A stretch of 64,000 bases of DNA from Halomonas sp. 1513 (GTDB lineage: Bacteria; Pseudomonadota; Gammaproteobacteria; Pseudomonadales; Halomonadaceae): assembly GCA_001971685.1 (NCBI GenBank), contig CP019326.1, forward strand, positions 1,178,001-1,242,000, read 5' to 3'. Positions 13,786 through 63,639 of the stretch are shown here, piece after piece; within the stretch, counting starts at the first letter, position 1, and each line of letters opens with the position of its first letter. The notes beneath the pieces are model-generated. The model made no database searches. It saw nothing but the letters and a program-made list of their open reading frames with translations, and was not told where the DNA came from. Made by a program: the position numbers and the translations under genes.

Positions 13786-13879
13786 CCGGGGACAGGTCTG
13801 AAGAGGGTTCGATTCCATGGAAGGAATCGGTAGCGTACAGGGAAGTATTTATAGCGCCCTCGTACAGACCTGTCGCCGG
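13786..13879 (-). repeat. Structured intergenic element, copy R1
   Basis: This is the most divergent of four copies, in reverse orientation. Helix P1 pairs GACAGGTCTG (13791-13800) with CAGACCTGTC (13865-13874), extended by CCGG on both sides. P2 pairs GAGGG (13803-13807) with CCCTC (13857-13861). P3 pairs CGATTCC (13810-13816) with GGAATCG (13823-13829) around ATGGAA, i.e. TTCCAT in element orientation. Much of P1 and all of P3 differ in sequence from the other copies, but pairing is kept. Confidence 0.7.
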
Positions 13880-13950
13880 ATATGCCGCGCACTGGATAAA
13901 TAGGTAGCGCCGGGGACAGGGCTATCGCAGGTAGGCAACACCGCTCGGAA

Positions 13951-14052
13951 CTGATCCGTCGGCAGGCCTACGAGAGGGCGCTGTGAACCCCTCCCTGGGC
14001 GCTACCTTGCGCCATCCATGGCGCAAACCCTCTCTTCGGCCTGCCCCCGGCG
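13951..14052 (+). repeat. Structured intergenic element, copy R2
   Basis: Forward copy. P1 pairs GGCAGGCC (13961-13968) with GGCCTGCC (14038-14045). P2 pairs GAGAGGG (13972-13978) with CCCTCTC (14028-14034), separated from P1 by TAC/TTC. A conserved stretch of about 28 bases follows, then P3 pairs TTGCGCC (14007-14013) with GGCGCAA (14020-14026) around loop ATCCAT. The upstream flank (13917-13950, CAGGGCTATCGCAG...CCGCTCG) is shared with copy R3. Confidence 0.8.
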
Positions 14053-14192
14053 TCCTCGCTCTGGGGGCTATCTACTGGCGCCCGACGCCGCGCCAAGGTA
14101 CCCTGAGCGCCGATTCAAAATGGGCGTTGGTGTCCGAACGTTCACCCGCCGCCACCGTGCGGCGCCCATGGGCATAGCGATTTGGAGTTTGC

Positions 14193-15344
14193 ATGGCTAA
14201 GGCTTCACAGGATTCCAGCGCCGACCAGGCGACTGGCATGGCCTCGATCGCCGAGCTGATCGACGACATTCGTCAGGGCAAGATGGTGATCCTGATGGAC
14301 GATGAGGATCGCGAGAACGAGGGCGATGTGATCATGGCCGCCGAGAAGGTCGAGGCCCAGCACATCAACTTCATGGCCCGCCACGCGCGCGGCCTGATCT
14401 GCCTGCCGATGACCCGCGAGCGCTGCCAGCGCCTCAAGCTGCCGCTGATGGTCAGCGACAACGGCTCCGGCTTCGGCACCAAGTTCACGCTCTCCATCGA
14501 GGCCGCCGAGGGCGTCTCCACCGGCATCTCCGCCGCCGACCGTGCGCGCACCGTGCAGGCTGCCGTGGCCCGCGATGCCAGGGCCGAGGATATCGTCCAG
14601 CCCGGGCACATCTTTCCGCTGATGGCCGAGCCGGGCGGCGTGCTGCGCCGTGCCGGGCACACCGAGGCGGCCTGCGACCTGGCGGCCATGGCCGGCCTCG
14701 ACCCCAGCGGCGTGATCTGCGAAGTCATGAACGATGACGGCAGCATGGCGCGGCGCCCCGAGCTCGAACGCTTCGCCGCCGAGCACGGCCTCAAGATGGG
14801 CACCATCGCCGACCTGATCCACTATCGCATTCACAACGAGCAGACCATCGACCACGTCGAGTCGACCCAGGTGCAGACCAGCTTCGGCGCACTCGACCTG
14901 CACGTGTTCCGCGACAGCATCCAGGGCGCCCATCACCTGGCGCTGGTCAAGGGCCGGCCGTCACCCGAGGTGCCGACCACGGTGCGCGTCCACCTGGCCG
15001 ACGTGATGCGCGATCTGCTGTGCCTGCAGAAGGGCGACAACGCCAGTTGGAGCGCCAGCGGCGCCATCGCCGAAGTGGCCCGTGCCGAGGCCGGCGTCTT
15101 CGTGCTGCTCGACGACGGCCGCCCGCGCCAGGACTTCCTCGACTACCTCGAGGTGTTCCTCGAGCGCCGCCGTCAGCCGCGTGGCAGCGAGTCCGACGGC
15201 GCCGGCAACTACCTGACCATCGGCACCGGCTCGCAGATCCTGCGCCACCTGGGCGTCGGCAAGATGCGCCTGCTCAGCTCGCCGTGGAAGTTCTCGGCGC
15301 TGTCGGGCTTCGATCTGGAAGTGGTCGAACGGCTGGACCCCTAG
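14193..15344 (+). CDS. ribB: 3,4-dihydroxy-2-butanone 4-phosphate synthase with degenerate GTP-cyclohydrolase-II domain (RibBX type)
   Basis: This 383-residue protein has a complete N-terminal RibB domain (about 15-215). It shows the acidic motif DDEDRENEGD, the GHIFPL and RAGHTEAACDL motifs and ICEVMNDDG. It makes the four-carbon precursor of riboflavin from ribulose 5-phosphate. The C-terminal half (about 220-380) has the RibA fold but lacks the three zinc cysteines and active-site signature of GTP cyclohydrolase II (VRVHLADVMRDLL where these would lie), so it probably has no cyclohydrolase activity. A separate ribA is expected elsewhere. The ATG has GGAG 5-6 bases upstream. ribH follows after 51 bases. 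Confidence 0.88.
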   Translation: MAKASQDSSADQATGMASIAELIDDIRQGKMVILMDDEDRENEGDVIMAAEKVEAQHINFMARHARGLICLPMTRERCQRLKLPLMVSDNGSGFGTKFTLSIEAAEGVSTGISAADRARTVQAAVARDARAEDIVQPGHIFPLMAEPGGVLRRAGHTEAACDLAAMAGLDPSGVICEVMNDDGSMARRPELERFAAEHGLKMGTIADLIHYRIHNEQTIDHVESTQVQTSFGALDLHVFRDSIQGAHHLALVKGRPSPEVPTTVRVHLADVMRDLLCLQKGDNASWSASGAIAEVARAEAGVFVLLDDGRPRQDFLDYLEVFLERRRQPRGSESDGAGNYLTIGTGSQILRHLGVGKMRLLSSPWKFSALSGFDLEVVERLDP

Positions 15345-61868: not shown

Positions 61869-61931
61869 ACCAGCGGTTTACTGTTCAACGCCGGGCTCAT
61901 CGGCTCGGCATTTTCTCAAGATGGTTAACGC

Positions 61932-62756
61932 GTGACACAAGCTCCCGAATACTCTGCCCTCGAACAGCCCTACCTCGATCTGATGCGCCAGGTATTGAAC
62001 CAGGGCGTGGCCAAGCACGACCGCACCGGGGTCGGCACGCGCAGCGTGTTCGGCCACCAGATGCGCTTCGACCTGGCGCGGGGTTTTCCGCTGGTGACTA
62101 CCAAGAAGCTGCACCTGCGCTCGATCATCCACGAGCTGCTGTGGTTTCTCTCCGGCGACACCAATATCCGCTACCTCAGGGAGAATGGGGTGCGCATCTG
62201 GGACGAGTGGGCCGATGACAACGGCGACCTGGGGCCGGTGTACGGCTACCAGTGGCGCAGCTGGCCGCGCCCCGACGGCGGCCACGTCGACCAGATCCGT
62301 CAGGTGGTCGAGCAGATAAAGTGCAACCCGGACTCGCGGCGGCTGATCGTCTCGGCCTGGAACCCGGCGCTGGTCGACGAGATGGCGCTGCCGCCGTGCC
62401 ATGCGCTATTCCAGTTCTACGTTGCCGAGGGGCGGCTCTCCTGCCAGCTCTATCAGCGCAGCGCCGATATCTTCCTCGGCGTGCCGTTCAATATTGCCAG
62501 CTACGCGCTGCTGACCTGCATGGTGGCGCAGGTGAGCGGCCTCGAGCCCGGCGAGTTCGTCCACACCCTGGGCGACGCCCACCTGTATGCCAACCACCTC
62601 GAGCAGGCCGAGCTGCAGCTGTCGCGCGCGCCGCGCCCGGCGCCGCACCTGGTGCTCGATTCGCAGGTGCGCGACCTGTTCGCCTTCCGCTTCGAGGATA
62701 TCGCCATCGAGGGCTACGACCCGCACCCGCATATCAAGGCCGAGGTGGCGGTATGA
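61932..62756 (+). CDS. thyA: Thymidylate synthase
   Basis: This 274-residue cytoplasmic enzyme methylates dUMP to dTMP using methylenetetrahydrofolate. Motifs: DRTGVGTRSVFGHQMRFDL, FPLVTTKKLHLRSIIHELLWFLSGDTN, the catalytic C156 in LPPCHALFQFYV, and QRSADIFLGVPFNIASYALL. It starts with GTG, about 10 residues longer at the N-terminus than E. coli ThyA. The stop overlaps the folA start (ATGA), coupling it to the enzyme that recycles its dihydrofolate product. Confidence 0.96.
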   Translation: MTQAPEYSALEQPYLDLMRQVLNQGVAKHDRTGVGTRSVFGHQMRFDLARGFPLVTTKKLHLRSIIHELLWFLSGDTNIRYLRENGVRIWDEWADDNGDLGPVYGYQWRSWPRPDGGHVDQIRQVVEQIKCNPDSRRLIVSAWNPALVDEMALPPCHALFQFYVAEGRLSCQLYQRSADIFLGVPFNIASYALLTCMVAQVSGLEPGEFVHTLGDAHLYANHLEQAELQLSRAPRPAPHLVLDSQVRDLFAFRFEDIAIEGYDPHPHIKAEVAV

Positions 62757-63313
62757 GCGACCAGCGCTTGTCAGCCCCGTTTGACACCATGGTCCCGGTG
62801 GCGATGATCGCCGCCATGTCGCGCAACCGGGTGATCGGCGTCGACAACCAGCTGCCCTGGTACCTGCCGGAGGACCTCAAGTTCTTCAAGGCCATGACCC
62901 AGGGCAAGCCGTTGGTGATGGGGCGCAAGACCTTTGCCTCCATCGGCAAGCCGCTGCCGGGGCGACTCAATATCGTGGTGACGCGCGACAGCGCCTTCGA
63001 GCACCCCGGCGTGCGGGTCTGCCACGACCTCGAAAGCGCCCTCGACCTCGCCGACCAGCAGGCGATCATCGACGGGGTGGAGGAGATTATGGTGATGGGC
63101 GGCGGGCAGATCTACGCCCAGGCCATGCCCTACGCCGCGCGGCTCTATCTCACCGAGGTGGCGCTCGAGGTGGAAGGCGACGCGCGTTTCCCCGAGCTCG
63201 ACCCGGGCGAGTGGCGGGAGTGCCAGCGGGTGCCCGGCTCGCCGCACGAGGGCCAGCCGGCCTATGCGTTCGTCGAGTATCGGCGTCGGGATGCCAGCCC
63301 CGGCCAGGACTGA
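62753..63313 (+). CDS. folA: Dihydrofolate reductase
   Basis: This 186-residue enzyme reduces dihydrofolate to tetrahydrofolate with NADPH. Core motifs: MIAAMSRNRVIGVDNQLPWYLPEDLKFFK (the Asp-equivalent acid is in PEDLK), VMGRKTFASIGKPLPGRLNIVVTR and VMGGGQIYAQAMP. An N-terminal extension of about 12 residues precedes the usual start; an internal ATG at 62789 (MVPVAMIAAM) is a possible alternative, but ATG 62753 overlaps the thyA stop in the typical coupled way. The last residues (RRDASPGQD) extend beyond the usual end. Repeat copy R4 lies about 70 bases downstream. Confidence 0.95.
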   Translation: MSDQRLSAPFDTMVPVAMIAAMSRNRVIGVDNQLPWYLPEDLKFFKAMTQGKPLVMGRKTFASIGKPLPGRLNIVVTRDSAFEHPGVRVCHDLESALDLADQQAIIDGVEEIMVMGGGQIYAQAMPYAARLYLTEVALEVEGDARFPELDPGEWRECQRVPGSPHEGQPAYAFVEYRRRDASPGQD

Positions 63314-63639
63314 TCCGTCGGCGGTGTCGCTCGGGGCTACCCCGGCGGCAGCGTGGGCATTCGCCTCAAGCGAGGGGCGCCGGGGGCAGGGCGAAGAGGA
63401 GGTTTGCGCCATGGATGGCGCAAGATAGCGCCCAGGGACGGGTTTATAGCGCCTCCTCGTAGGCCTGTCGACGGATCAGCCCCGAGCGGGTATAGGCCCT
63501 CGGCGTATCAGGTAAAAGCGGTATCACGTCATTGGCTTGGACTGAGTGATGCCATCCTGGCGCGGTGCATTGTCAGAATGGTAAAGCTGGCACACACTTG
63601 AGGTCATGATCACGTGAGATGCGCATGGAGGGCGACGCC
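63314..63639. other. Intergenic region after folA
   Basis: This 326-bp gap contains GC-rich hairpins next to folA, repeat copy R4 (63385-63479) and then a less GC-rich stretch (63500-63620) that should hold the promoter of the last gene. I found no convincing -35/-10 pair and no RNA gene there. Confidence 0.6.
63385..63479 (-). repeat. Structured intergenic element, copy R4
   Basis: Reverse copy, about 85% alike to R2 and R3 by eye. P1 pairs GGCAGG (63385-63390) with CCTGTC (63464-63469), with one G-U pair in RNA. P2 pairs GAGGAGG (63396-63402) with CCTCCTC (63452-63458). P3 pairs TTGCGCC (63404-63410) with GGCGCAA (63417-63423) around ATGGAT, which is ATCCAT in element orientation. The outer CTGATCCGTCGAC block is kept at 63467-63479. 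Confidence 0.8.

Follow-up and report, generated by a model that had tools for sequence, protein, structure and literature searches.

The closest described relative of the element analyzed here is the YPAL (RU-2) repeat of Yersinia, a palindrome of ~168 bp (PMC2759123) for which the accessible part of one report records sites that are empty in some strains and filled in others, target duplications that vary, and no transposase with experimental support (PMC2229807). The accessible part of another proposes the TwoAYGGAY RNA (Rfam RF01731) as CsrA-binding (PMC4333381). For CsrA/Rsm proteins themselves, the available text gives the consensus RUACARGGAUGU from systematic evolution of ligands by exponential enrichment (SELEX; PMC7652899) and, together with a second partly accessible source (PMC3791407), six-nt ANGGAN loops with variable Ns. 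Here we describe four copies, R1–R4, of a structured palindrome in a 64,000-nucleotide stretch of Halomonas sp. 1513 (contig CP019326.1, positions 1178001–1242000; hereafter, the window). They belong to an abundant YPAL-type palindromic element that is not of the kind formed by repetitive extragenic palindromes (REP) and REP-associated tyrosine transposases (RAYT). The copies share one architecture, are dispersed, differ in presence between species, frequently lie behind stop codons and are maintained at orthologous sites. On balance, sequence comparison leads us to favor the view that R1–R4 are miniature, protein-less, mobile or formerly mobile elements that would act as CsrA docking sites in 3′ untranslated regions (UTRs).

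Fold and copies in the window

The core of the element is 115 nt long and consists, from the outside inwards, of a 5-bp outer helix (nt 1–5 with 106–110; e.g., GGGAC/GTCCC, GGGGC/GCCCC, GCGGC/GCCGC, TGAGC/GCTCA), a CCG/CGG clamp, P1 (8 bp), an internal loop and P2 (7 bp), inside which lie two small hairpins, P2a and P3 (all in the orientation of the sequence-only reading that first described R1–R4). The P2a stem is CCC/GGG in most of the 13 short copies aligned and TAC/GTA in R1, with a seven-nt bulge such as CTGTAAA; the P3 stem has 7 bp and the loop WTCCAT. That reading had placed all four copies to within a few bases and quoted their P1, P2 and P3 arms correctly. The common fold of P1, P2 and P3 it proposed stands, but it had overlooked the outer helix and P2a, the latter being contained in the conserved stretch described as one-sided. 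The P3 loop WTCCAT, ascribed to all four copies, is present in the short ones but not in R3, where an 87-nt insert replaces it. The P1 of R4, previously unquoted, is GACAGGCC/GCCCTGCC and pairs imperfectly. The features of the four copies and the adjoining genes and open reading frame (ORF) are as follows (CM, covariance model).

13775–13888, minus strand: R1, short copy; CM match of 99.4 bits; P3 stem CGATTCC/GGAATCG, P2a stem TAC/GTA
13947–14061, plus strand: R2, short copy between ribD and ribBA; CM match of 137.7 bits
13961–13968, plus strand: R2 P1 left arm, pairing with 14038–14045
13972–13978, plus strand: R2 P2 left arm, pairing with 14028–14034
13988–13999, minus strand: R2 P2a hairpin; minus-strand loop AGGGAG (ANGGAN)
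14007–14026, minus strand: R2 P3 hairpin; minus-strand loop ATGGAT (ANGGAN)
24402–24596, plus strand: R3, long copy just behind ilvD
24468–24554, plus strand: 87-nt insert of R3 replacing the six-nt P3 loop and holding another CATCCATG hairpin
63369–63483, minus strand: R4, short copy behind the folA-containing ORF; CM match of 133 bits
12616–13749, plus strand: ribD, upstream of R1/R2 (TIGR00326)
14193–15344, plus strand: ribBA, downstream of R1/R2 (NF010626)
22518–24362, plus strand: ilvD, with its stop codon ~40 bp before R3 (NF009103)
62252–63313, plus strand: ORF whose dihydrofolate reductase (folA) domain starts at about residue 182 (NF008037 match below its own cut-off), with its stop codon ~55 bp before R4

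The long form is represented by at least 18 near-full-length matches to R3 (R3 counted), with a nearly identical insert. From family to family, the arm sequences vary almost freely, whereas the core, read by eye as CGCyGTrAAyACrTCCmTGTrsGCTCGA, and the P3 loop are constant. Sharp termini were looked for at the ends of the element and none were seen; the ends fade gradually. The P3 module was considered as an independent element and rejected: it stood alone in none of 63 matches (40 of 104 candidates scored). In the Halomonas sp. 1513 genome, the copies L017 and L018, located at separate places, carry a similar small extra hairpin in the left arm, between P1 and P2; the ortholog of L017 in the congener G004 lacks it.

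Spread and relation to described elements

A covariance model built from the 13 short copies (threshold E ≤ 0.01; E-values are rough owing to short calibration) yielded at least 77 matches, including R1–R4, in the 4.13-Mb genome of Halomonas sp. 1513 (150 of 4071 first-look candidates scored). In a set of relatives, 27 of 58 genomes matched, this genome counted: all five of the genus, each with at least 50–64 matches (64 having been scored), together with 17 of the 32 further members of the family and 5 of the 21 further members of the order. Among named genomes, the nearest that shares the neighborhood is that of Halomonas sp. LBP4, with an IlvD 93% identical. Thus, further copies are abundant in Halomonadaceae, and the element is dispersed, as had been proposed from the four copies. 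A broader model, from 72 copies, matched 48 of 274 genomes of a class-level sample (Halomonas sp. 1513 included; 13 candidates scored per genome) and 19 of 299 genomes of a phylum-level sample, all 19 from the same class, in a sample whose share of other classes is not shown. Of 80 loci fetched for search, 39 were searched, with two matches. Nine R2-like places were found on NZ_CP040452.1, a 1.83-Mb replicon of Halomonas sp. PA16-9 listed as a plasmid, and at that sensitivity R2 matched no further plasmid record and none from phages. Tandem arrays also occur: six ~227-bp units at 1788–3152 of L272 (G505:C1:92500-97500) combine the element with GTAGGAGCGGCTTCAGCCGCGA, which we take to resemble classical REP, and ~205-bp units of element plus spacer at 1090–1617 of L082 (G046) comprise three element copies. 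At 2530–2959 of L247, there is a match to the cspA thermoregulator below threshold (66.6 bits, cut-off 78).

The sequence-only reading knew of no named element with this fold, which proved incorrect on two counts, since YPAL/RU-2 folds alike and one locus passes the Rfam cut-off for TwoAYGGAY. When folded, the RU-2 sequence printed in the accessible part of its description shows the same P1/P2/P2a/P3 layout (PMC2759123), has the same core (GTAAATACATCCATGTAGGCTCG and a second ATCC-loop hairpin) and is likewise multicopy and intergenic. Model R2 finds ten YPAL-like copies in the genome G533 (best E 1.5e-11, whole genome), with arms that, by eye, read like RU-2; membership was judged by the RU-2 fold and these matches. 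Other arm sequences, the long P3 form, the abundance in Halomonadaceae and the class-wide spread set the present element apart from YPAL as far as the available descriptions go, and the reported target-site duplications of 3–26 bp were not found here. Those descriptions, in the parts available, make no link to CsrA. De Gregorio is said to have reported in 2006 that YPAL sits close behind stop codons; similarly, the 75 copies of the Halomonas sp. 1513 genome have, in all, 56 stop codons at no more than 60 bp from one of their ends.

TwoAYGGAY, in which an outer stem encloses two AYGGAY-loop hairpins, likewise on the GGA strand, appears to be a remote relative of the element. L081, a locus from a different family of the order, reaches 43.5 against a cut-off of 43, alone among 33 loci scanned, and L243 reaches a sub-threshold 36.8 bits. 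There were no matches over the cut-off in Halomonas sp. 1513, where the best of five sub-threshold matches has 22.9 bits, and an Rfam scan of the window gave none over the cut-offs. The second base of the P2a loop is mostly G, not Y, although ANGGAN holds in both loops, and the accessible description does not present TwoAYGGAY as a dispersed palindromic repeat. The consensus of Ysr224 (Rfam RF02770), a small RNA of Yersinia, holds a YPAL-type core on the opposite strand; matches were found in 5 of 13 and 9 of 20 loci, all far below the gathering score (best 34.7 versus 70).

Other comparisons are looser. CsrB/CsrC and RsmX/Y/Z share multiple GGA-loop hairpins with the element, judging from the available text (PMC7652899), but are dedicated small RNA genes with many sites, whereas a short copy of the element has two predicted sites, and tens of copies lie behind genes. 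ERIC and miniature inverted-repeat transposable elements (MITEs) are, in the accessible account, also protein-less, palindromic, intergenic and ~100–200 bp long (PMC2229807), but the element lacks sharp termini and has a different core. As for the suggested REP/RAYT kind, PF01797 (Y1 transposase) has no match in the Halomonas sp. 1513 genome (G000) or in G004, a congener with 50 element matches; seven of the 27 element-bearing genomes, these two included, have none, whereas G043 (49 PF01797 matches) and G031 (12) have no element match. Linkage to RAYT was therefore rejected. In the literature covered, from which most subscription papers fall out, no paper links YPAL, TwoAYGGAY and CsrA or reports the family in Halomonas; the same holds for the accessible parts of PMC3733652, PMC2267715, PMC10969869 and PMC12306157.

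Covariation, insertion history and arm evolution

The claim that the element is structured and covarying held in larger alignments. In the 13 short copies, 96.7% of cells pair and 14 of 30 pairs show two-sided changes (shuffled mean 2.6; 0 of 500 shuffles). In alignment A3 (91 distinct copies from Halomonas sp. 1513, its family and a few of the order, among them one truncated, one partial long-form and two opposite-strand matches), 95.0% of cells pair, 31 of 35 pairs have two-sided changes, and two-sided cells number 469 versus 119 in shuffles. In A5, whose 59 copies come nearly all from other families, pairing reaches 90.4% of cells, with a covariation score of 0.903 versus 0.193 shuffled and sliding controls of at most 0.153; further pair types (104 versus 110.9 shuffled) did not exceed the shuffles, 491 of 500 being as high. 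Because alignments A3–A6 were fitted to models, their pair counts lean towards structure. Chance is excluded as the source of the pairing in R1–R4. The further claim that covariation means a selected structure is only partly sustained: orthologous copies are better conserved than their flanks, but, as set out below, re-copying of one arm from the other would yield the same pattern.

Presence and absence at syntenic sites, known from YPAL, recur here. R1 sits in a 191-bp segment absent from all four congeners and replaced by 5 bp in G001, G003 and G004. R2 occupies the same ribD-ribBA place in these three genomes, with a core that, by eye, is identical in the G003 and G004 alignment, and is a remnant in G002. 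Between R1 and R2 (13908–13935) lies a right-end-like piece (GCGCCGGGGACAGGGCTATCGCAG) absent from the congeners examined. Behind ilvD, where R3 resides, G002 is empty, with only an imperfect 7-bp repeat visible by eye, a short copy of another kind stands in G004, and the place is taken in G001 and G003 by unrelated-looking DNA that includes, by eye, a gene resembling short-chain dehydrogenases. R4 is kept in G001 and G003, and G002 and G004 carry a copy in opposite orientation. G000 and G003, and conversely G004, retain remnants of the other copy; because of them, we favor, at R4, two ancestral copies with differential loss over inversion in situ. Eroded left ends of other copies (GACTGATCCGTCGGCGG, CGCTCGGGGCTACCCCGGCGGCAG) lie beside R4 at 63309–63345, suggesting repeated insertion and loss at this site. 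Opposite orientations at the same intergenic site in two congeners were also seen for L207/L031, which have palindromic outer ends (CAGGGCGAT..ATAGCC), and for L201/L043.

Among 16 G004 copies fetched, 12 are at sites where Halomonas sp. 1513 also carries a copy among the loci compared: nine with the same element and orientation, two in opposite orientation and one nested (L212, where the P2a loop of one copy holds another). In the nine same-orientation pairs, the element is 987/1032 identical (95.6%), compared with 846/974 (86.9%) for the adjacent 60 bp and 3918/4229 for the farther flank (Fisher p 1.6e-12 and 4e-4, respectively), with the reservation that the model used to find the G004 copies favors intact ones. 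This better preservation provides independent support for selection. Long and short P3 forms alternate at the orthologous sites L209/L012, L210/L017 and L211/L009 (the G004 copies having been picked by the short-form model).

Within the single genomes G486, G242 and G146, the left arms of paralogous copies are 40–45% identical, compared with 81–85% for the cores, and Watson-Crick pairs occupy 329/371, 321/336 and 345/372 arm cells, respectively. Evolution of the arms was followed in a Marinobacter-like genus (name inferred from gene content), in G486 and 14 congeners, at three sites (rho-ubiD, rpsT-proB and one more). For 18 orthologous copies compared over the innermost 24 arm positions (excluding a G614 copy with a replaced left arm, as well as other-orientation and decayed copies), 424 of 432 cells are Watson-Crick, seven A.C, one other and none G.T; one G.T and some mismatches occur further out. 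Pairwise differences between species comprise 260 two-sided paired, 40 one-sided and 11 two-sided mismatched cases; the comparison is ungapped and overcounts differences where arm lengths differ (e.g., G450 at the third site), pairing counts being unaffected. Arm pairs at the orthologous sites are the same in 640/864, 130/144 and 167/240 comparisons. In a subset of five, three and four copies per site, we counted 11 transition-type and 10 transversion-type changes of pair state and six non-Watson-Crick states. Palindromes can undergo templated correction, in which one arm is re-copied from the other. The few intermediates and frequent transversion-type changes suggest that such re-copying may operate here, with or without selection, and, since it would also yield covariation, covariation shows selection only in part.

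Insertion into pre-existing palindromes was rejected: four element-free congeners lack an arm palindrome at rpsT-proB (by eye), and the flanks of copies in the Halomonas sp. 1513 genome show weak complementarity, its observed mean being equaled in 2, 0 and 4 of 60 permutations for three widths and six of 75 copies ranking below 0.05. The rho-ubiD copy is intact in 9 of 14 genomes examined; G055, G612 and G619 have, by eye, a different hairpin without the core at the same place. In the rho-ubiD intergenic region of G620 (L343), the arms GGGGACCAAAAC/GTTTTGGCCCCC enclose another sequence instead of the core, a possible state of core loss or core swap.

CsrA-type loops and competing explanations

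Both small hairpins, P2a and P3, have a six-nt loop and a C-G closing pair when the GGA strand is read, the form of a predicted CsrA hairpin (ANGGAN closed by C-G). The P2a loop reads CANGGANG in 87/91 (A3), 58/59 (A5) and 41/42 (A6) copies and the P3 loop in 82/91, 53/59 and 42/42. Variation is concentrated at positions 3 and 7, the two Ns, other positions deviating in at most 2 of the 42–88 eight-nt loops per set, so that the four fixed letters and the closing pair are near-invariant. The commonest class-level P2a is UACAGGGAUGUA (UAC-AGGGAU-GUA; 13/59), with the stem UAC/GUA in 35/59. The long-form insert adds another CANGGANG hairpin in 16 of 16 inserts parsed (of 18, two being outside the search pattern), which is not independent evidence because these are close relatives. 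It is the near-invariance of the ANGGAN loops, with variation in the Ns, that points to CsrA, and binding by CsrA would be the best single explanation of the loops. A csrA gene is present in Halomonas sp. 1513; its co-occurrence with the element is uninformative as support (matches in 44 of 48 element-bearing and 191 of 226 other genomes, absence being read from the list of matches).

Gene calls based on codon usage place a stop codon within 60 bp of the right end in 39 of the 75 Halomonas sp. 1513 copies and of the left end in 17 (p 0.0046; 39 and 22 with a cruder gene caller), often with the copy 10–60 bp behind the stop; the GGA-loop strand thus tends to be the sense strand of the 3′ UTR in this genome. 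An intrinsic terminator was considered and rejected: of 38 copies, 2 have a gene-sense terminator no more than 150 bp past the element (control strand 4; random windows 1/400), and none was found between stop codon and element in these 38.

Under the reading we favor, copies would have spread as non-autonomous mobile DNA through an enzyme preferring gene 3′ ends and would be co-transcribed with the neighboring gene, within its 3′ UTR. In transcripts of the GGA strand, two CANGGANG hairpins carried by the long stem would be bound by a CsrA/RsmA dimer, which might thereby be tethered to the 3′ end of the mRNA or titrated. The arms, free in sequence, would be kept palindromic by selection, by arm-to-arm templated correction or by both. 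Several observations weigh against this proposal. Right/left stop codons number 15/17 at class level, 10/8 at family level, 2/6 in G486, 6/6 in G146, 2/3 in G242 and 2/5 among the YPAL-like copies of G533, and this lack of orientation bias is not what a need to transcribe the GGA strand would lead one to expect. Copies are only moderately closer to stop codons than under random placement (0.75 within 60 bp per Halomonas sp. 1513 copy versus 0.47, from 11 element-free gaps of the window). Wobbles do not identify an RNA strand consistently, with A.C/G.T counts (in the orientation used above) of 65/45 in A3, 44/36 in A5 and 7/0 in the genus g43 orthologs, but 2/12 in G533, and assignment of the strand from them was abandoned. 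The csrA matches leave out four of the 48 element-bearing genomes, including G252, which is 98% complete. The P3 stems have 7 bp, compared with four or fewer pairs in most CsrA SELEX ligands according to the available text (PMC7652899). Finally, no transposase was identified, PF01797 being the sole transposase family searched, and no clean target-site duplication was found.

The strongest competitor, unlikely in our estimate yet to be taken seriously, is that the element functions in DNA only: the hairpins would be single-stranded or cruciform signals for a transposase, core and loops being conserved as its recognition sequence, genes would be mere insertion sites, and the CsrA-like loops coincidental or inconsequential. 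The inconsistent strand preference outside Halomonas sp. 1513, the few wobbles without consistent RNA-strand asymmetry, the near-perfect arms with transversion-type double changes, and the presence/absence pattern with its nested copy all accord with this. What it does not readily accommodate is that both loops obey CANGGANG with variation concentrated in the two Ns, and that orthologous copies are kept better than adjacent DNA, the rho-ubiD copy being a case in point.

A 3′-UTR stabilizer without CsrA, in which the long hairpin would keep exonucleases from the 3′ end of the mRNA, a role also proposed for Yersinia YPAL, is less probable still, although a live rival too. In its favor, the accessible text suggests that YPAL might influence the stability of upstream transcripts (PMC2229807), copies are often close behind stop codons, and the different hairpin at rho-ubiD in three congeners looks as if any hairpin would serve; it leaves unexplained the near-invariant ANGGA loops and the C-G closing pairs of both small hairpins. 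That covariation and conservation mostly reflect homogenization by gene conversion between paralogues, as the alternation of long and short P3 forms and the replaced left arm in G614 might suggest, is very improbable, considering that arm pairs are mostly alike between orthologs and that paralogous left arms in G486 are 45% identical. A REP/BIME-type repeat mobilized by RAYT can practically be dismissed, for although the element is palindromic, intergenic and multicopy, with a REP-looking GTAGGAGCGGCTTCAGCCGCGA in the L272 units, its occurrence mismatches that of PF01797 and, at 115–195 nt with two inner hairpins, it is unlike the 20–40 bp REP.

These results join a Yersinia repeat family, an orphan Rfam family and repeats spread through Gammaproteobacteria; what is new is that both loops on one strand fit the CsrA rule, that the arms vary between species at a given site while remaining complementary, that copies are gained and lost between species, often follow stop codons and are conserved beyond their flanks, and that paired CsrA sites are the proposed function. 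They also carry a warning, in that palindromes in which one arm corrects the other can show near-perfect covariation, by which covariation statistics may be misled. We offer as a tentative synthesis, to which we would give somewhat less than even chances, that a Gammaproteobacteria-wide family of mobile palindromes, with YPAL, TwoAYGGAY and the Halomonas and Marinobacter-type repeats as branches, has sown paired CsrA sites behind dozens of genes per genome, creating a distributed CsrA sponge or 3′-UTR regulon, and that the arms evolve in concert at each site, one templating the other, so that they covary without every pair being selected. If CsrA does bind, tens of mRNA 3′ ends per genome would become predictably linked to the Csr regulon, and a post-transcriptional regulon could grow by transposition.

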